Shown here: positions 6,506 through 13,957 of the stretch, piece by piece
Layout of the letters: every line of letters starts with the position of its first letter
How positions within the stretch are numbered: the stretch's first letter is position 1
Origin: Ornithinicoccus hortensis
GTDB taxonomy: Bacteria > Actinomycetota > Actinomycetes > Actinomycetales > Dermatophilaceae
Direction: 5' to 3'
DNA: 64,000 nt
NCBI RefSeq assembly: GCF_006716185.1
Contig: NZ_VFOP01000001.1
Span: forward strand, 3,348,001-3,412,000
Made by a program: the position numbers and the translations under genes
The notes under the pieces: model-generated
The model's database searches: none
The model's input: only the letters and a program-made list of their open reading frames with translations
Told to the model about the DNA's origin: nothing

Positions 6506-7870
6506 CTATCCGCCGGTGGCGACGCCGCTGGAGTAGAGCTTCTCGGGCAGCCAGGTGATGATCTCGGGGAAGACGGAGAACAACACGAGGGCCAGCGCGA
6601 GGATTCCGACGTAGGGCAGCGCACCGATCAGGACTTCCTTGAGCGGGATGTCCGGGGCGATCCCCTTGATCACGTAGAGGTTCAGGCCGACCGGCGGGGT
6701 GATCAGGCCCATCTCCATGTTGATGGTCATCAGCACCCCGAACCAGATCGGGTCGAAGCCGAGGGTCAGGATCACCGGCAGCAACACCGGGGTGACCATC
6801 ACGATGATCGACACCGGCGGCAGGAAGCAGCCCATCACCAACAGGATCACGTTGATGATCAGCATGACCACCCACTTGTTCATGTCCAGGTCGGTCACCA
6901 GGGTGGCCAGGTCCTGCGGGATCCGCAGGTAGCTCAGCACCACGGCGATCACGGCCGAGAAGCAGGTGATCAGCAGGATCATCGTGCTCTGGTTGGTGGT
7001 CTCGAGCAGGACCTTGATCAGGTCCTTGCCGCGCAGTCCCCGGTAGCCGATCCCGATCAGGGCCATCACCAGGACCACGCCGACCGCGGCGGCCTCGCTC
7101 GGGGTCGCGATGCCCCGGTAGAGGACGAACAGGACCGCGAAAACCAGCAGCGCGAAGGGCACCACCTTGGCCAGGCTGACGAACCGGTCCGGCCAGGAGT
7201 ACAGCCGCGCCGTGACCTTGCGGGCACCGTGGTGCGGCAGCACGTCCGGACGGCTCGCCCGACGCTCCTCCATCCGGGTCGCGATGAAGATCCAGATGCA
7301 GAACATCGCGGTGATCACGATGCCGGGGATGATGCCGCCGGCGAAAAGCTGTCCGATCGACTGCTCCGCCGCGATGCCGTAAAGGATCAACGTCACGCTG
7401 GGCGGGATCAGGATGCCGAGGGTTCCACCGGCGGCGACGGCACCCGTGGCGATCCGGGAGGAGTAGCCCCGGGTCGCCATCTCCGGGATGGCGACCCGGC
7501 CGATCGCGGCGGCGGTGGCCGCGCTGGCACCGGTGAGCGCGGCGAAGATGGCCGAGGCCAGCACGCTGCTCATCGCCAGCCCGCCCTTGACCCGGGACAA
7601 CCAGGCCTCACCGGCCTCGAAGAGCTGCTTGCTGGCCGTCGACCCGCCGAACAGGTTGCCCATCAGCACGAACAGCGGGATGGCGAGCAACCCGAAGTCG
7701 TTCATCGAGTCGAAGACCATTTTGCCGAATAGGTCGAACTGGTCCGGCCCGAGGAAGATGACGATGGACAGGATGGCCGTGATGGCCAGCGCGAAGGCGA
7801 TCGGCATGCCGGTCAGGAACAGCACCATCGCCATCGCCAGGATGATGCCGCCTTGGGCGAAGGAGCTCAT
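6506..7870 (-). CDS. dctM: TRAP transporter large permease (DctM)
   Basis: This is the 454-aa large membrane subunit of a tripartite ATP-independent periplasmic (TRAP) transporter, which uses an ion gradient to import a carboxylate or similar acid presented by the binding protein. About 12 hydrophobic segments span the length, and the family signatures GRVAIPEM and TLGILIPPSVTLILYGI are visible. The ATG overlaps the dctQ stop by four bases. It is the last gene of the dctP-dctQ-dctM unit. The family carries dicarboxylates, sialic acid, keto acids and malonate, so the substrate must be taken from context (CoA-transferase and carboxyltransferase nearby). Confidence 0.95.
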   Translation of the reverse strand: MSSFAQGGIILAMAMVLFLTGMPIAFALAITAILSIVIFLGPDQFDLFGKMVFDSMNDFGLLAIPLFVLMGNLFGGSTASKQLFEAGEAWLSRVKGGLAMSSVLASAIFAALTGASAATAAAIGRVAIPEMATRGYSSRIATGAVAAGGTLGILIPPSVTLILYGIAAEQSIGQLFAGGIIPGIVITAMFCIWIFIATRMEERRASRPDVLPHHGARKVTARLYSWPDRFVSLAKVVPFALLVFAVLFVLYRGIATPSEAAAVGVVLVMALIGIGYRGLRGKDLIKVLLETTNQSTMILLITCFSAVIAVVLSYLRIPQDLATLVTDLDMNKWVVMLIINVILLVMGCFLPPVSIIVMVTPVLLPVILTLGFDPIWFGVLMTINMEMGLITPPVGLNLYVIKGIAPDIPLKEVLIGALPYVGILALALVLFSVFPEIITWLPEKLYSSGVATGG

Positions 7871-8544
7871 CGGCCGGCCTCCGTGTCGTCGTCGGTGGGT
7901 CGCGGTTCGTCCTGGGCGGCCGCCTCGGCCTCCGCTTCGGCCCCTGCCTCGGCTTCCGCCGCGGCCGCGACGCCGATCTGTTCGATCTCCTGCTCGACGA
8001 CCGCCTTCTCACCGCCGTGGCCCATCAGCATGACCTCGGACATCGGGATCTTGCCGGTCAGTCCCCTGACCCCGTCGACGATCATCGCGACGTACTGCAG
8101 CGCGACCGCGCCCATCCCGACCGGCAGGATCGTGTAGACGACCGACAGCGGCGCCCGCCACGCGGTGGAGGAGGTGAAGCCGCCCTCATAGGCCTCGAGC
8201 CAGATCTTGAACGAGGTCCAGAAGACGATGAGGACCACGCCCAGGCAGAGCACCGCGGTGACCAGCCGCAGGATCAGCTGGGGGCGTGGCCCCAGCGCCT
8301 CGACGACCAGGTCGACGCCCACGTGCGCGTGGTGCTTCAACCCGTAGGCGGCCCCCACGAAGGTGACGAACATCAGCAGGTAGATGGTCAGTTCGGTCTG
8401 CCAGACCGTCGGCGCCCCGAGGAAGTAGCGGGCGGTGACCGCCTGGACGGTCACCGCCGTCGCCGCCAGCAGGGCAATGCCGCACAGGTAGCCGGTGAGC
8501 TCGGAGAGGGCGTTGGCCCACCGGAAGGTGAGGATCGACTTCAT
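7867..8544 (-). CDS. dctQ: TRAP transporter small permease (DctQ) with acidic C-terminal tail
   Basis: This is the 225-aa small membrane subunit of the TRAP transporter. It has four hydrophobic segments in the first ~175 residues, with the family-typical VTVQAVTARYFLG and GLKHHAHVGVDLVVEAL stretches. The last ~45 residues form a low-complexity Glu/Ala/Asp tail, which is unusual because DctQ proteins normally end soon after the fourth helix. The tail's reading frame runs right into the dctM overlap. It starts 3 bases after the dctP stop, so the three genes form one transcript. Confidence 0.92.
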   Translation of the reverse strand: MKSILTFRWANALSELTGYLCGIALLAATAVTVQAVTARYFLGAPTVWQTELTIYLLMFVTFVGAAYGLKHHAHVGVDLVVEALGPRPQLILRLVTAVLCLGVVLIVFWTSFKIWLEAYEGGFTSSTAWRAPLSVVYTILPVGMGAVALQYVAMIVDGVRGLTGKIPMSEVMLMGHGGEKAVVEQEIEQIGVAAAAEAEAGAEAEAEAAAQDEPRPTDDDTEAGR

Positions 8545-8547
8545 CGG

Positions 8548-9606
8548 TCAGTCGTGTTGTTCCTGGGCGAGCTCCAGCAACTCGGCACCACCCTCGACAT
8601 CCGCGGCGTAGGCATCCCACTGCTTCTGCGCCAGCTCCAGCCACTCGTCGAAGGCGGCGTCGTCCATCTGGACGACCTCGACGCCGGCGTCCGCGAAGAT
8701 CTTCTCGACCCGGGCGTCGTCCTCCTCGGAGGCGGTGTAGGCGTAGTCCTGCAGGTCCGCACCGACCTTGTCGACGGCGGCCTGCTGGTCCGAGCACAGC
8801 TTCTCGTAGGAGCCGGTGGAGATGATCAGCGGCTCGAACATGAACCAGAAGGTGTTCTCGGTCGGCGAGGTGAAGGACTTCACCTGCTCCTGCAGGTTGT
8901 AGGAGGCGAACGAGCCGGTCGAGGTGACGGCGGCGTCCAGGACCCCGGTCTGCATCGCGGTGTAGATCTCGTTGCTGGGCAGGCTGGAAATGCCCGCGCC
9001 CGCGTCCTCGAGCATGAACTCCACATAGGAGCCGGCGGCCCGCATCGTCATGCCGGGCTCGACGTCGGAGGGGCTCACGATCGGGTCGGTCTTGGACCCG
9101 ATCGCGCCGGCGTTCCACACCCAGGTGAGCAGGTGGGCGCCGTTCTCCTCCATGTTGGCCACCAGCGCGTCGCCGATCGGGCTGCCCTCCCAGGACTGCG
9201 CCTGCGCGTGGTTGCGCACCAGGCCGGGCATCAGCGTGACGCTCCACTCCGGCACCCGGCCGGAGGCGTAGTCCAGCGGGAAGACCGACATGTCGATCGA
9301 GCCGTTCATCATCGCGTCGTACTGCTCGGTGGACTTGGACAGCGTGCTGTTCGGGAAGACCTGGACCTTGACCTGTCCGTCGGTCTCCTCCTCCACCCCC
9401 TCGGCGAACTTCTGGGCGATCAGGGACCGGAAGTCCCCGTCCTCACCCGTTGCCTCGGGCCACTGGTGCGACAGCCGCAGCGTCACGTCCTCGCAGTCGC
9501 CGCCAGCCGTGCTGCCGCTGTCGTCGCCACCGCCACCGCCGCATGCTGCGAGCACCAGGCTCGAGCCGAGGGCCAGGGCCACCAGGGGCGAGATTGGGTT
9601 CCTCAT
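8548..9606 (-). CDS. dctP: TRAP transporter substrate-binding lipoprotein (DctP)
   Basis: This is the 352-aa extracytoplasmic solute receptor of the TRAP system. It has a lipoprotein signal peptide with lipobox LAAC (Cys22), a Gly/Asp/Ser-rich linker, then the DctP fold starting at VTLRLSHQWPEATG. The Arg in GMTMRAAGSY (near residue 184) is in the position that binds the substrate carboxylate in known DctP proteins. An organic acid substrate is therefore expected. It is first in its operon, with its own promoter and a candidate GntR operator just upstream. Confidence 0.95.
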   Translation of the reverse strand: MRNPISPLVALALGSSLVLAACGGGGGDDSGSTAGGDCEDVTLRLSHQWPEATGEDGDFRSLIAQKFAEGVEEETDGQVKVQVFPNSTLSKSTEQYDAMMNGSIDMSVFPLDYASGRVPEWSVTLMPGLVRNHAQAQSWEGSPIGDALVANMEENGAHLLTWVWNAGAIGSKTDPIVSPSDVEPGMTMRAAGSYVEFMLEDAGAGISSLPSNEIYTAMQTGVLDAAVTSTGSFASYNLQEQVKSFTSPTENTFWFMFEPLIISTGSYEKLCSDQQAAVDKVGADLQDYAYTASEEDDARVEKIFADAGVEVVQMDDAAFDEWLELAQKQWDAYAADVEGGAELLELAQEQHD

Positions 9607-9648
9607 TGATCCGTCCTCCCTCGAGGGACTACTCCGTCCCAGGGCGCC

Positions 9649-9663
9649 AGTGGCCTATCCACT
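9649..9663. promoter_or_regulatory. candidate GntR operator at dctP promoter
   Basis: The inverted repeat AGTGG-CCTAT-CCACT lies immediately downstream of the predicted dctP transcription start, where a repressor would block the polymerase. The same 15-bp pattern (ATTGG-CCTAG-CCAAT) occurs at 12460-12474 between caiB and gntR. Ten core bases, TGGCCTA plus CCA, are shared and the outer bases change in a compensated way. Confidence 0.7.
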
Positions 9664-9675
9664 AGTCCTCGCTGG

Positions 9676-9704
9676 ACAGTAGCCACGGTCACAGCGCAGG
9701 TCAA
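9676..9704 (-). promoter_or_regulatory. dctP promoter
   Basis: On the minus strand a -35 box TTGACC (9704-9699) is separated by exactly 17 bases from a -10 box TACTGT (9681-9676). The predicted start is near 9669, giving a ~63-base leader that contains the operator at 9649-9663. Confidence 0.65.
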
Positions 9705-9753
9705 GAAACAACACACACGTATGCCGATCCGTTGCGAAGCCGTGATCCTCCGG

Positions 9754-11247
9754 TCACCGCCCGGTCGGCAGGCCCAACCGCCGGTACCGGGTCCGACGGT
9801 CGGCGAAACGCTGCTCGGGGTCCTGCGCGAGCACCTCGAACAGGGTGGCCCGGAGCACGGCTCCCATGCGGAGGCAGAACTGCTCGGGCTCCTCCGCGGC
9901 GTCCGGCAGCTCGGGCACGACGTGGTCCACCACGCCCTGCCGGAGCAGGTCGAGCGAGCGGACCTGCTGGGCCGCAGCCAGTTCCGGGGCGTGCGAGGTG
10001 TTGCCGTGCAGGATCACGCTGGCGCCCTCCGGCGGCAGGGGGGACAGCCACCCGTGCTGGGCGGCGATCACCCGGTCGGCGGGGATCAGCGCCAGTGCGC
10101 CACCACCGGTCCCCTGCCCGAGCAGTACCGAGATGGTGGGTGCCGGCAGCGAGCTGAGGTCGGCCAGGCACCGCGCGATCTCCATCGCCATCCCCCGCTC
10201 CTCGGCGTCCTGGCTGAGGGCTGCGCCCGGCGTGTCGATCACGGTGACCAGCGGCAGGTCCAACTCGGCCGCCAGCCGCATCCCGCGCCGCGCCTCCCGG
10301 AGCGCACCCGGGCCCATCGGCTGCTCGTCGGTCTGCCCCCGGCGGTCCTGTCCGAGCAGGACGCAGGGCGCCCCGCCGAAGGTGGCCAGGCACAGGATCA
10401 CCCCCGGATCCACCTCGCCGTCGCCGGTCCCGCTGAGCGGGACCACGTTCTCGGCCGCCATCCGCAGCAGCCTGCGCACACTGGGTCGCTCCGGCCGCCG
10501 GGAGAGCTGGATGGATTCCCAGGCGGGGATGTCGGGCAGGTCGTCGCGCGGGGGCACCTCGGGCACCGGGAAACCGCGGCGCGGGGCGAGGAGCACGGTG
10601 AGGGCCGCCGCGGCCAGGTCCCGCAGCCCCTCCGGCGGCACCACACCGTCGATCAGCCCGTGCGCGAAGAGGTTCTCCGAGGTCTGCACGCCGTCCGGGA
10701 AGGGCTCGCCGTGCAGCGCCTCGTACACCTTCGGGCCGAGGAAACCGACCAGCGCCCCCGGTTGGGCCACGGTGACGTGACCCAGCCCACCCCAGGAGGC
10801 GAGCACGCCACCGGTCGTGGGGTGCCGCAGGTAGACCAGGTAGGGCAGCCCCGCCGCCTTGTGGTCGTTGAGCGCCGCGGAGATCTTCACCATCTGCAGG
10901 AACGCGGTCGTGCCCTCCTGCATCCGGGTCCCGCCGGAGGCGGTCGCCGCCAGCAGTGGCAGGCCCTCGGCGGTCGCCCGCTCGACGGCCGACACCAGCC
11001 GTTCGGCCGCGGCGACCCCGATCGACCCGGCCAGGAAGGAGAAGTCGCAGGCCATGATCGCCACCCGGCGACCCTGGAGCAGCCCCTCCCCGGAGACGAC
11101 GGACTCGTCCAGGCCGGACCGCTCGGCCGCCCGGGCCAGGCTGCCGGCATACGCCTCGTCCGCGTCCACCTGGATCGGGGCCCCGTCCCAGCGGACGAAG
11201 GTGCCAGGGTCCAGCGTGGTCGTGATCAGCTCGAGGGTGGCGTTCAC
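9754..11247 (-). CDS. fused AccD-AccA type carboxyltransferase (possible decarboxylase)
   Basis: This 497-aa protein joins an AccD-like half (residues ~1-245) to an AccA-like half (~255-490), the two crotonase-fold parts of an acyl-CoA carboxyltransferase. Conserved carboxyltransferase stretches are SGGTRMQEGT and PTTGGVLASWGG in the first half and PGAALSQDAEERG and GQGTGGGAL in the second. The Zn-ribbon with CxxC motifs found at the N-terminus of AccD is absent. No biotin carboxylase or biotin carrier gene lies nearby. The GTG start overlaps the stop of the CoA-transferase gene (GTGA). It may be a carboxyltransferase using a partner encoded elsewhere, or a malonyl-CoA-type decarboxylase like the MdcD/MdcE pair. 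Confidence 0.85.
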   Translation of the reverse strand: MNATLELITTTLDPGTFVRWDGAPIQVDADEAYAGSLARAAERSGLDESVVSGEGLLQGRRVAIMACDFSFLAGSIGVAAAERLVSAVERATAEGLPLLAATASGGTRMQEGTTAFLQMVKISAALNDHKAAGLPYLVYLRHPTTGGVLASWGGLGHVTVAQPGALVGFLGPKVYEALHGEPFPDGVQTSENLFAHGLIDGVVPPEGLRDLAAAALTVLLAPRRGFPVPEVPPRDDLPDIPAWESIQLSRRPERPSVRRLLRMAAENVVPLSGTGDGEVDPGVILCLATFGGAPCVLLGQDRRGQTDEQPMGPGALREARRGMRLAAELDLPLVTVIDTPGAALSQDAEERGMAMEIARCLADLSSLPAPTISVLLGQGTGGGALALIPADRVIAAQHGWLSPLPPEGASVILHGNTSHAPELAAAQQVRSLDLLRQGVVDHVVPELPDAAEEPEQFCLRMGAVLRATLFEVLAQDPEQRFADRRTRYRRLGLPTGR

Positions 11248-12434
11248 GACTCGGCGAGCCACTGCCGGATCGACTCCCCGTCGGCGTCCAGTGCCGGGGG
11301 TGCGGAGTGGTCGCGCTTGGTGGTCTCCACCTCGGCGCCGTCCTCCACCCGGAAGGTCCGCAACGGCGGGCCGGGCAGGCTGATGGTGCCCAGCAGCGGG
11401 TGCTCCACGTCGATCAGCAGGCCCTGCGAGCGGGTCTGGTCCCACTCGTAGACCTCCTGCAGGGTGCGCACCCGACCCGCCGGCACCCCCGCCTGGGCGA
11501 GCCGGTCGAGCAGGTCCGCACCGTCCAGGTCGGCGAAGGCGTCCTCGATCACCTCGATGAGGCGGGGCCGGTTGGCGACCCGGTCCGGGTTGGTCGCCAG
11601 GCCGTCCATGGCCGGGTCCAGGTCGAAGGCGGCGCAGAACTTCTCCCACAGCGACTGGTTGGCCACGGCCACCTGGACCGCTCCGTCCCGGCAGCGGAAG
11701 AGGCCGTACGGCGCGATGGAGGGGTGGTGGTTGCCCTGGGCCGCCGGCACCTCACCGGCGACGGTCCACCGGGTGCCCTGGAAGGCATGGACCCCGACGA
11801 CGCTGGCCAGCAGCGAGGTCCGGACCACCTGGCCCTTGCCGGTGCGGGCCCGCTCGAGCAGCGCGGAGACCACGCCGTACGCGCCGTACATCCCGGCCAG
11901 CACGTCCCCGATCGGGACGCCCACCCGCTGCGGGTCGTCCGGCCCGCTCCCGGTCAGGGACATCAGGCCGGCCTCGCCCTGGGCGATCTGGTCGTAGCCC
12001 GCGCGTCCCCCCTCGGGGCCGTCGTGGCCGAAGCCGGACACGGACAGCACGACCAGGCCGGGGTTGAGCTCGGCCAGCCGGGCGGTGGAGAACCCGAGGC
12101 GGTCGAGCACGCCCGGACGGAAGTTCTCCAGCAGCACGTCCGCCCGGGTGATGAGCTCGGTCAGCACCGCCCGGTCGTCCTCCCCCTTCAGGTCCAGCGC
12201 GATGGACTCCTTGTTGCGGTTGCAGGACAGGTAATAGGTGGCGACGTCACCCTCGTCGGTCGGCATGAACGGCGGCCCCCAACCCCGCGTGTCGTCCCCC
12301 TTGCCGGGCACCTCCACCTTGATCACCCGAGCCCCCAGGTCGGCGAGCATCATCGCCGCGTGCGGGCCCGCCAGGGCACGGGTGAGGTCGACGACGAGCG
12401 TGCCGGCCAGGGGACCTGTCGAGGTCTGGTTCAT
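11244..12434 (-). CDS. CaiB/BaiF family (type III) CoA-transferase
   Basis: This 396-aa enzyme moves CoA between carboxylic acids. The family-typical start PLAGTLVVDLTRALAGPHAAMMLADLGARV is present, together with NKESIALDLK and the catalytic Asp in GYDQIAQGE (Asp148). The ATG at 12434 is chosen because TAAGGAGA lies just upstream; a longer frame exists but has no ribosome site. The start is 26 bases from the shared operator. It is translationally coupled to the carboxyltransferase, so it most likely makes the CoA ester that this enzyme carboxylates or decarboxylates. Substrate not determined. Confidence 0.93.
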   Translation of the reverse strand: MNQTSTGPLAGTLVVDLTRALAGPHAAMMLADLGARVIKVEVPGKGDDTRGWGPPFMPTDEGDVATYYLSCNRNKESIALDLKGEDDRAVLTELITRADVLLENFRPGVLDRLGFSTARLAELNPGLVVLSVSGFGHDGPEGGRAGYDQIAQGEAGLMSLTGSGPDDPQRVGVPIGDVLAGMYGAYGVVSALLERARTGKGQVVRTSLLASVVGVHAFQGTRWTVAGEVPAAQGNHHPSIAPYGLFRCRDGAVQVAVANQSLWEKFCAAFDLDPAMDGLATNPDRVANRPRLIEVIEDAFADLDGADLLDRLAQAGVPAGRVRTLQEVYEWDQTRSQGLLIDVEHPLLGTISLPGPPLRTFRVEDGAEVETTKRDHSAPPALDADGESIRQWLAES

Positions 12435-12459
12435 GCGCCATTTCTCCTTAGACGAGCGG

Positions 12460-12474
12460 ATTGGCCTAGCCAAT
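12460..12474. promoter_or_regulatory. candidate GntR operator between caiB-like gene and gntR
   Basis: The inverted repeat ATTGG-CCTAG-CCAAT sits in the 75-bp divergent intergenic region. On the minus strand a TTGACT -35 box for the CoA-transferase gene lies at 12497-12492, which would place this palindrome over its -10 region. For gntR it lies directly upstream of the -35 region. It matches the palindrome at 9649-9663. Confidence 0.7.
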
Positions 12475-12503
12475 AGGACAATCCGCCTGGAAGTCAATAT
12501 CCT
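12475..12503 (+). promoter_or_regulatory. gntR promoter, probably leaderless
   Basis: The -10 box TATCCT (12498-12503) is six bases before the ATG at 12510. A weak -35 box AGGACA (12475-12480) is 17 bases upstream of it. No Shine-Dalgarno precedes the start, so the mRNA probably begins at the start codon. Confidence 0.5.
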
Positions 12504-12509
12504 GTGCCC

Positions 12510-13253
12510 ATGATGGCCTCACCGACGGAGGAGCCGGACTCTGCCCTGTCCCGGATGCCGCGCCAGCGGCTCTACGAGCAGATCGTCCAGCAGTTGTTGC
12601 GCCACGTCGAGACCCGGGGCCTGGCTCCCGGGGACCGGCTCCCCCCGGAGCGCGACCTGGCGGCCACGCTCGGGGTCAGCCGCGCCTCGATCTCCCAGGC
12701 TCTGGTGGCCCTGGAGGTCCTCGGTGTCGTGTCGGTGCGGCACGGCGACGGCGCCATGCTGCTGGACCGGCGCAGCGAGCACCAGGTGCTCACCGCGCTG
12801 CGCAGCCACCAGGCGAGGCTCCCGGAGGTCATCGACGCCCGCGCGGCGATGGAGGGCACGCTGGCCCGGCTGGCGGCCGTTCGGCGCACGGACGCGGACC
12901 TCGCGGCGATCGACGCCGCCCTGGACAAGATGGAGGCGGACATCGACGCCGGTGCCCGCGGGGTGGACGGGGACAAGGCCTTCCACGCGGCCATCACCGC
13001 CGCCGGGCACTCCCCGCTGCTGGCCCGGCTGATGGCCGAGATCTCCGAGCTGATCCGGGAGACCCGCCTAGAGTCACTGGCCCAGCCGGGACGCCCCCGG
13101 GAGTCGCTGGCCGCCCACCGCCGGATCACCGAGGCGATCCGCGCCGGGGACGCCGACGGCGCCCGCGTGGCGATGGAGGACCACATCGCCCTGGTATCCG
13201 ACGTCGCGCTGAACCGGGAGCACGACCCCGGCCCGCACCCCGAGGAGGACTGA
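12510..13253 (+). CDS. FadR-type GntR family transcriptional regulator
   Basis: This 247-aa regulator has an N-terminal winged helix (residues ~15-85; LPPERDLAATLGVSRASISQALVALEVLGVV is the HTH core) and a C-terminal all-helical FCD ligand-binding domain (~95-225, with AAMEGTLARLAA and FHAAITAAGHSPLLARL). FCD proteins bind small carboxylic acids and usually act as repressors. It is divergent from the CoA-transferase gene, with a palindrome between that is repeated at dctP, so it is the likely regulator of the whole 6.5-12.4 kb cluster. Start could also be GTG 12504 or ATG 12513; the -10 box position favours 12510-12513. Confidence 0.93.
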   Translation: MMASPTEEPDSALSRMPRQRLYEQIVQQLLRHVETRGLAPGDRLPPERDLAATLGVSRASISQALVALEVLGVVSVRHGDGAMLLDRRSEHQVLTALRSHQARLPEVIDARAAMEGTLARLAAVRRTDADLAAIDAALDKMEADIDAGARGVDGDKAFHAAITAAGHSPLLARLMAEISELIRETRLESLAQPGRPRESLAAHRRITEAIRAGDADGARVAMEDHIALVSDVALNREHDPGPHPEED

Positions 13254-13255
13254 CC

Positions 13256-13957
13256 GTGGCCGGCTCCCACCTGGACGCGAACCTGGAGCTGCTGGCCGGC
13301 GAGACCCGTGCCCTGGTGGACACCGTCGCCGCGCTGCGCCCGGAGGACCTGGCCGCACCGACGCTGTGCCCCGGCTGGTCGAGGGCCCACGTCATCACCC
13401 ACGTCGCCCGCAACGCCGACGCCCTGGACAACCTCTTGCACTGGGCCCGGACCGGCGAGCGCCGGGACGCCTACGGCTCCGAGGAGCAACGGGCCGCGGC
13501 CATCGAGGAGGGCGCCGGACGCGGACCGTCCGAGTTGCTCGCAGACCTGACCGACAGCGCGCAGCGGTTCGCCACGCACGCGGTCGACCTGCGCGGCCCC
13601 GCCGGTCAGGCGGAGGTGCTTACCCGCACCGGCACCCCGGTCCGCGGGGACCAGGTGCCCACCATGCGGCTGCTCGAGGTGGTCGTCCACCACGTCGACC
13701 TGCTCGCCGGCTACACCTTCGCCGACAGCGACCCGGGCTTCGTGCAGCGCACCCTGCGTCGCGCCGCCCGGACGGCGGGCGCCGGCGGACTCGACCTGCG
13801 GTTGCGGACCCCCGACGGCCAGGAGCTGCCCGTGGGGGCGGGCACCGGCCCGGTGGTCACCGGCAGTCCCGCGGACCTGCTGCTGTGGCTGGTCCGCGGG
13901 CGTGCGGAACGGCTGACCCACGACATACCGCTGCCGGACCCGCCACCCTTCGCCTGA
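13256..13957 (+). CDS. mycothiol-dependent maleylpyruvate isomerase family protein
   Basis: This is a 233-aa DinB-like four-helix protein of the mycothiol-dependent maleylpyruvate isomerase family. The N-terminal PTLCPGWSRAHVITHVARNADAL and the central LLEVVVHHVDLLAGY supply the His/Glu/His metal ligands of this family. The C-terminal part is the smaller SCP2-like domain. The GTG start is two bases after the gntR stop, so it is probably co-transcribed with gntR. Family members act in gentisate breakdown or as mycothiol S-transferases; which of these applies is not clear. Confidence 0.85.
   Translation: MAGSHLDANLELLAGETRALVDTVAALRPEDLAAPTLCPGWSRAHVITHVARNADALDNLLHWARTGERRDAYGSEEQRAAAIEEGAGRGPSELLADLTDSAQRFATHAVDLRGPAGQAEVLTRTGTPVRGDQVPTMRLLEVVVHHVDLLAGYTFADSDPGFVQRTLRRAARTAGAGGLDLRLRTPDGQELPVGAGTGPVVTGSPADLLLWLVRGRAERLTHDIPLPDPPPFA

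Follow-up and report, generated by a model that had tools for sequence, protein, structure and literature searches.

Which acid does a locus serve, and by what chemistry, when it joins a TRAP importer, a type III coenzyme A (CoA) transferase and a fused carboxyltransferase next to a GntR-type regulator? Such a cluster lies in the window analysed here, a stretch of 64,000 nucleotides of the Ornithinicoccus hortensis genome (3.94 Mb, G000 in what follows; contig NZ_VFOP01000001.1, positions 3,348,001 to 3,412,000). It comprises dctPQM, gntR, the CoA-transferase gene caiB and the gene of a fused AccD/AccA-like carboxyltransferase (CT). These genes had been named by a sequence-only reading of the window, and family profiles bore the calls out: DctM, DctQ, DctP, a fused AccD/AccA-type carboxyltransferase, a type III CoA-transferase and a GntR with an FCD domain. 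We propose that the cluster is part of a malonate-responsive regulon with CoA-based decarboxylation of malonate, a reading that we consider likely on the comparison of genomes. No paper on this system was found in the open-access literature.

The candidate operator in the window and in its genome

The two 15-mers that first suggested a regulon were found exactly where they had been placed, AGTGGCCTATCCACT at 9649-9663, 42 bases 5' of the dctP start (9606, minus strand), and ATTGGCCTAGCCAAT at 12460-12474, in the gap between caiB (start 12434, minus strand) and gntR (plus strand, from 12504). They had been described as inverted repeats; the sites are real but are not free palindromes, as the core is off-centre and directional. 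At the sites inspected, the core (CTAGG, ATAGG, CTAGT and others) points into a caiB, CT, transporter or hydrolase gene, with the exception of Aeromicrobium, where it reads towards gntR. The second operator of this genus is found where the gene of a TauE/SafE-type permease starts (L111:7735-8544).

The window alone is no proof of a motif, because loose matching there equals chance (when as many as 3 mismatches were allowed, 20 matches versus 15.8 expected, with no excess over shuffles, and 3 versus 2.2 in a second loose-pattern scan), so that exact genome-wide matches and relatives are required. Without any mismatch, the pattern WNTGGCCTANCCANW occurs at four places in G000, each before a plausible operon and all with the gene-ward reading WNTGGMTAGGCCANW. 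The targets are dctP, caiB, the gene of a short-chain fatty acid transporter (PF02667) followed by an amidase gene, and an Abhydrolase_10 gene. When one mismatch was allowed, 5 further places appeared, a number below the count from a reversed control pattern. The Abhydrolase_10 gene (L012:9940-11919; genome C1, about 403.9 kb) has a signal-peptide-like start and probably codes for a secreted hydrolase, which may be an esterase for the release of malonate from malonyl esters.

A -35 element of the TTGAC type was seen at 18 of 21 sites, which were picked by hand and counted with no shuffled control, and at 9 of the 21 the operator begins 16-17 bases past the -35, over the position of the -10. 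The dctP operator lies 12 bases past a promoter-like pair (TTGACC-17-TACTGT), and that of caiB would cover the -10 position, since a TTGACT lies 17 bases upstream. An operator over or just past the promoter fits repression.

Conservation in relatives and the link to GntR

Genome contigs were scanned for CT, which yielded 33 loci (L043-L075), 13 of which code for a GntR of 58-65% identity near CT. The weight matrix applied to them was built from nine sites, four of the own genome and five from relatives; it was built without the caiB sites from four loci of Rhodococcus and five of mycobacteria, and without those from Nocardiopsis, Tersicoccus, Aeromicrobium, G015, G028 and G029. At 20 bits or more, 24 sites were found in the 33 loci, two per locus in 12 of them (one at the transporter, the other at caiB or CT), and 20 column-permuted matrices gave 1 such match in total. 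Conservation of the palindrome in relatives had been set beforehand as one of the points on which the regulon would stand or fall, and the paired sites of these 12 loci keep it.

In the own family, 59 genomes were scanned and gave nine matches to the pattern WNTGGMTAGKCCANW: four in G000, one each at the cluster in G015, G028 and G029, and two elsewhere, in G034 and G054, which have no explanation and are counted as misses. The G054 match (L116:7408) is exact and falls in the end of a gene with an acyltransferase domain (fabD-like), in a genome whose best GntR has 39% identity; chance may account for it. In 29 genomes selected by their CT, 29 of the 30 matches adjoin gntR, the transporter, caiB or CT, a count that is not fully independent because of that selection and because some of the sites built the motif, which makes it partly circular. 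A match in G171, some 170 bases upstream of the gene of a GNAT acetyltransferase, was counted as a miss. The reversed pattern occurs at 160 places in the same 29 genomes, and is no matched null because its letter order differs.

The operator also follows its presumed regulator, being present in 13 of the 14 genomes with a GntR at least 55% identical versus 3 of the 15 without (Fisher p 1.2e-4 over the 29 genomes), so that it co-occurs with GntR orthologues of 55-65% identity. Two of the three operator genomes that lack such a GntR have one of 42-47% identity beside the site. A regulon under this candidate operator is well supported by the comparison, and the operator is specific enough for finding the regulon in new genomes.

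Malonate as the predicted substrate

The inference of malonate gained support from the presence of MatC in the place of TRAP, from barbiturase beside CaiB and CT, from malonamidase-like amidases and from rhizobial precedents. The Rhodococcus and Mycobacterium loci have a MatC-type or MFS carrier where the window has its TRAP importer, with MatC between gntR and caiB (PF07158 by Pfam in L045, by blast in the other members). GtrA of Sinorhizobium meliloti is a regulator of the GntR type. The available parts of two papers describe MatC as the malonate importer of rhizobia (PMC12303837, PMC5237526), and those of the latter describe MatC with the GntR-type MatR for malonate in Rhizobium and a TRAP malonate importer under GtrA in S. 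meliloti (PMC5237526). Among solved structures, the amidases coded downstream of operators are nearest to malonamidase E2, with 221.6 bits for the own genome and 231.1 for Tersicoccus, the next structural family reaching 149.7 and 156.7 bits, respectively. DctP has a poor predicted model (predicted local distance difference test, pLDDT, 38). Its nearest solved structure is 4mco/4mev, with 284 bits over residues 40-349 versus 74.5 bits for the next best, and the 4mco structure presumably holds malonate. Malonate as the acid of the pathway is a well-supported prediction.

The barbiturase link

The product of barbiturase, formed by opening of barbiturate, is ureidomalonate, from which malonate arises. 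In the Rhodococcus erythropolis group, PucR, XdhC, an amidase, a permease of the xanthine/uracil type and a PF09663 protein are coded in one cluster with the CaiB-CT pair. All three PF09663 proteins tested pass the cut-off for cyanuric acid hydrolase, which raised the alternative of a cyanuric acid pathway; this was rejected for the protein of the R. erythropolis group (L056), which reaches 804 bits with the solved barbiturase 5hwe versus 328 with cyanuric acid hydrolase. For the remaining PF09663 genes, the name barbiturase is based on blast kinship alone. The amidase that adjoins the L056 barbiturase is not especially near malonamidase.

Within the class, 394 genomes were searched for PF09663 and 81 have it. 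We compared the loci of the 60 best-scoring of these 81, several of which ended early by contig ends, and called CaiB at more than 45% identity (lowest 53%) to the protein of the window or of a relative. CaiB is coded in 30 of the 60 loci, CT in 16 and both in 13, with about 0.3 expected by chance if one copy per 4 Mb is assumed; CT stands without CaiB in 3, and carbamate kinase is found in 44. A row in L181 consists of GntR, MatC, CaiB, CT, carbamate kinase and barbiturase, without a good operator. Among 20 further CT loci of the own family, mostly the best-scoring from the 65 of 149 genomes that have CT, 11 lie beside barbiturase, 4 beside GntR and none beside both, and two of these four GntR proteins reach no more than 40-43% identity to their query.

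The likeness to the oxidative pyrimidine pathway lies in a barbiturase-family gene and a carbamate kinase that adjoin CaiB and CT in many actinobacteria. The difference is that the search for PF09663 found no such gene in G000, which would depend on the import of malonate. FdrA-, AllG- and AllH-like genes (oxamate carbamoyltransferase) lie with CT in L066 (by Pfam), L068 and L070 (by blast kinship), and carbamate kinase lies with CT in L049 and L057; a PF09663 gene is also present in L049, L057, L068 and L070. The ureido group of ureidomalonate is perhaps recovered as carbamoyl phosphate and ATP.

CoA-transferase and carboxyltransferase

CaiB fits a type III CoA-transferase by its PF02515 domain and by Asp177, which we take to be the catalytic aspartate and which is conserved in 97% or more of the 78 alignment rows. 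A CaiB at least 62% identical adjoins CT in 23 of 29 own-family loci, and in the window the two frames share four bases of overlap.

CT has the carboxyltransferase fold, and a decarboxylase of this fold has a precedent in MdcD-MdcE, which decarboxylates malonyl-CoA in vitro according to the available part of PMC5534430. The scores of CT lie under the curated cut-offs of both families, 178.8 versus 317.45 bits (TIGR00515) and 126.7 versus 319.3 bits (TIGR00513) for AccD and AccA, and 42.5 versus 278.15 bits (TIGR03133) and 26.5 versus 237.15 bits (TIGR03134) for MdcD and MdcE. In the fold comparison, the nearest entries were AccA and biotin-dependent carboxyltransferases; no MdcD/E chains were among the 50 entries listed, so it is uninformative either way about that family. 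Sequence and fold are shared with AccD/AccA, but CT differs in being fused, in a profile match that begins at AccD position 87 and in having a biotin carboxylase gene in 1 of 53 loci, about 8 kb off. Arg302 and Ser345 of the window CT are invariant over the 63 rows aligned.

Five mycobacterial genomes code for a second CT, 59-62% identical to that of the window, which we take by its gene order to be the orphan AccD3. An enoyl-CoA hydratase-like gene (EchA6-like by eye) lies beside it in four of the five genomes and a PrrA-like response regulator in two; L139 has EchA6-like, PrrA-like and PrrB-like kinase genes together, these labels having been given by reading, with no family search. A quick tree with many long branches, used for grouping only, places the five proteins in a group of their own. 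In the available part of PMC4347857, AccD3 was without a partner in pull-downs and the authors doubted a role as carboxylase subunit. Should CT prove to decarboxylate malonyl-CoA, AccD3 would be a candidate for the same activity.

Proposed pathway and alternatives

In the proposed mechanism, a FadR-type GntR repressor would bind the 15-bp operator over the caiB-CT and dctPQM promoters, and the same repressor would control the transporter-amidase pair and the hydrolase elsewhere in the genome. Malonate, or a malonate amide that the amidase hydrolyses, would enter the cell, and malonate or malonyl-CoA would relieve repression. CaiB would then charge malonate with CoA, taken from acetyl-CoA (or succinyl-CoA), and CT would decarboxylate malonyl-CoA to acetyl-CoA and CO2, with CoA cycling between both enzymes and taking the role that an acyl-carrier protein has in the Mdc system. 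Comparison backs the operator, the link to GntR, the conserved gene pair and the MatC and barbiturase links; we infer the binding by GntR, the effector, the CoA donor, the transfer of CoA to malonate and decarboxylation rather than carboxylation.

Several observations weigh against this reading. When the threshold was relaxed to 9 bits, the matrix gave 84 matches in the loci versus 18-213 for permuted motifs, which is no excess. The dctP site was found in neither of the nearest TRAP clusters, those of an Ornithinimicrobium bin (L058) and of the same-genus genome G145 (locus L266), both of which repeat the cluster of the window; G145 has the caiB operator, and that of L058 is poor (14.5 bits). 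No operator of at least 14 bits was found at the 11 own-family CT loci that adjoin barbiturase, and 5 of the 20 loci in that set lie beside neither GntR nor barbiturase. Among the nine genomes of the own genus that were listed, the own included, CT occurs in two, so the trait is patchy. CaiB is without CT in 17 of the 30 CaiB-holding PF09663 loci, and the nearest named models, those of succinate-glutarate, oxalate and mesaconate CoA-transferases, all match it below their cut-offs. CT is closer to AccD/AccA than to MdcD/MdcE, in a hand alignment Gln100 and Ser142 of MdcE seem not to be kept in it, and two biotin carboxylases coded elsewhere in G000 could serve it.

Regulon and substrate could be the same and CT nevertheless biotin-dependent, working with a housekeeping biotin carboxylase and carrier and either passing the carboxyl of malonyl-CoA to biotin or acting as a carboxylase. 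The resemblance of CT to AccD/AccA in sequence, and to AccA and biotin-dependent carboxyltransferases in fold, speaks for this, as do the two biotin carboxylases of G000; we nevertheless hold it to be unlikely, given a biotin carboxylase gene in just one distant position among the 53 loci, the replacement of the GHQKG of the AccA chain by GQDR in CT (kept in 61-63 of 63 rows per position) and the missing pull-down partner of the second mycobacterial CT, if that is AccD3 (available part of PMC4347857). The substrate might also be a related acid, such as methylmalonate, tartronate, malonamate or another short dicarboxylate, with malonate as a side substrate at most. MatC and TRAP families transport several dicarboxylates, and the regulon extends to an amidase, an alpha/beta hydrolase and a transporter of short-chain fatty acids, but the association with barbiturase (30 of the 60 PF09663 loci have CaiB), the malonamidase-like amidases and the exchange of TRAP for MatC converge on malonate and make another acid quite improbable. 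A role outside catabolism, with CaiB feeding malonyl-CoA into the synthesis of fatty acids or polyketides while CT just tunes the pool, would agree with the loci in which CaiB lacks CT; the dedicated importer and regulator and the frequent adjacency of CaiB and CT in the own family have a catabolic look, and we give this role slightly less credence still.

Decarboxylation of CoA-bound malonate in a malonate regulon remains the likely reading. Chances seem evenly balanced that it represents a further kind of cytosolic malonate decarboxylation, in which free CoA would be the carrier, a type III CoA-transferase would stand for MdcA and a biotin-independent AccD-AccA fusion for MdcD-MdcE, and which would serve imported and barbiturate-derived malonate across Actinomycetota, with AccD3 (assigned by gene order) as a family member. 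If true, a carrier-protein-free malonate route would be widespread in actinobacteria, the last steps of oxidative pyrimidine breakdown would be filled in these organisms, and AccD/AccA-like carboxyltransferases that mostly have no adjoining biotin carboxylase would gain a testable function.

Comparison with known malonate systems

Mdc (MdcACDE) resembles the proposed pathway in that a transferase loads malonate on a thiol carrier and an enzyme of the CT fold removes CO2. It differs in using an acyl-carrier protein, an MdcA-type transferase and MdcD/MdcE, whereas the carrier here would be CoA, the transferase is of type III and the carboxyltransferase is an AccD-AccA fusion. MdcE was not found in G000 at 1e-15, and 2 of 30 genomes match above the cut-off. 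The mycobacteria G169 and G177 have a true MdcE gene in addition to this type of cluster, so both malonate systems can coexist; in L120 it is apparently fused to that of MdcD.

The rhizobial MatRABC and MatPQMAB systems likewise combine a regulator with a MatC or TRAP malonate importer (available part of PMC5237526); a PF07158 protein corresponds to MatC in the clusters of relatives, and the window has TRAP. In contrast, their malonyl-CoA is made by the MatB synthetase and decarboxylated by MatA, neither of which is among the genes of the window cluster. The MatA family (PF05292) matched none of 30 genomes, control genomes being likewise silent. By its domains, the GntR of the window belongs to the FadR/FCD subfamily, its operator being a conserved candidate only; MatR belongs to the VanR group (available part of PMC2018728).

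Genes of the cluster and its surroundings

Table 1. Features of the predicted malonate cluster, in positions of the window.
Feature	Position	Strand	Basis or remark
dctM, TRAP large permease	6506..7870	-	PF06808 320.6 bits; TIGR00786 above cut-off
dctQ, TRAP small permease	7867..8544	-	PF04290 107 bits
dctP, TRAP solute-binding protein, probable malonate binder	8548..9606	-	PF03480; 4mco/4mev 284 bits
Candidate operator AGTGGATAGGCCACT (dctP-ward reading)	9649..9663	-	exact pattern, genome-wide
CT, proposed malonyl-CoA decarboxylase	9754..11247	-	AccD-AccA-like fusion
caiB, type III CoA-transferase, proposed malonate CoA-transferase	11244..12434	-	PF02515 382.4 bits
Candidate operator ATTGGCTAGGCCAAT (caiB-ward reading)	12460..12474	-	identical copy at G000:C1:2941448, before the short-chain fatty acid transporter
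gntR, FadR/FCD-type, proposed regulator of the regulon	12504..13253	+	PF00392 and PF07729 above cut-off
MDMPI-type gene, 3' of gntR	13256..13957	+	PF11716

The second of the two biotin carboxylases of G000 is coded at G000:C1:3412809, 0.8 kb beyond the window, in a very long frame with a biotin-carrier-like C-terminal part. The MDMPI-type gene behind gntR is found in the same order in two relatives, L058 and G145 (locus L266).

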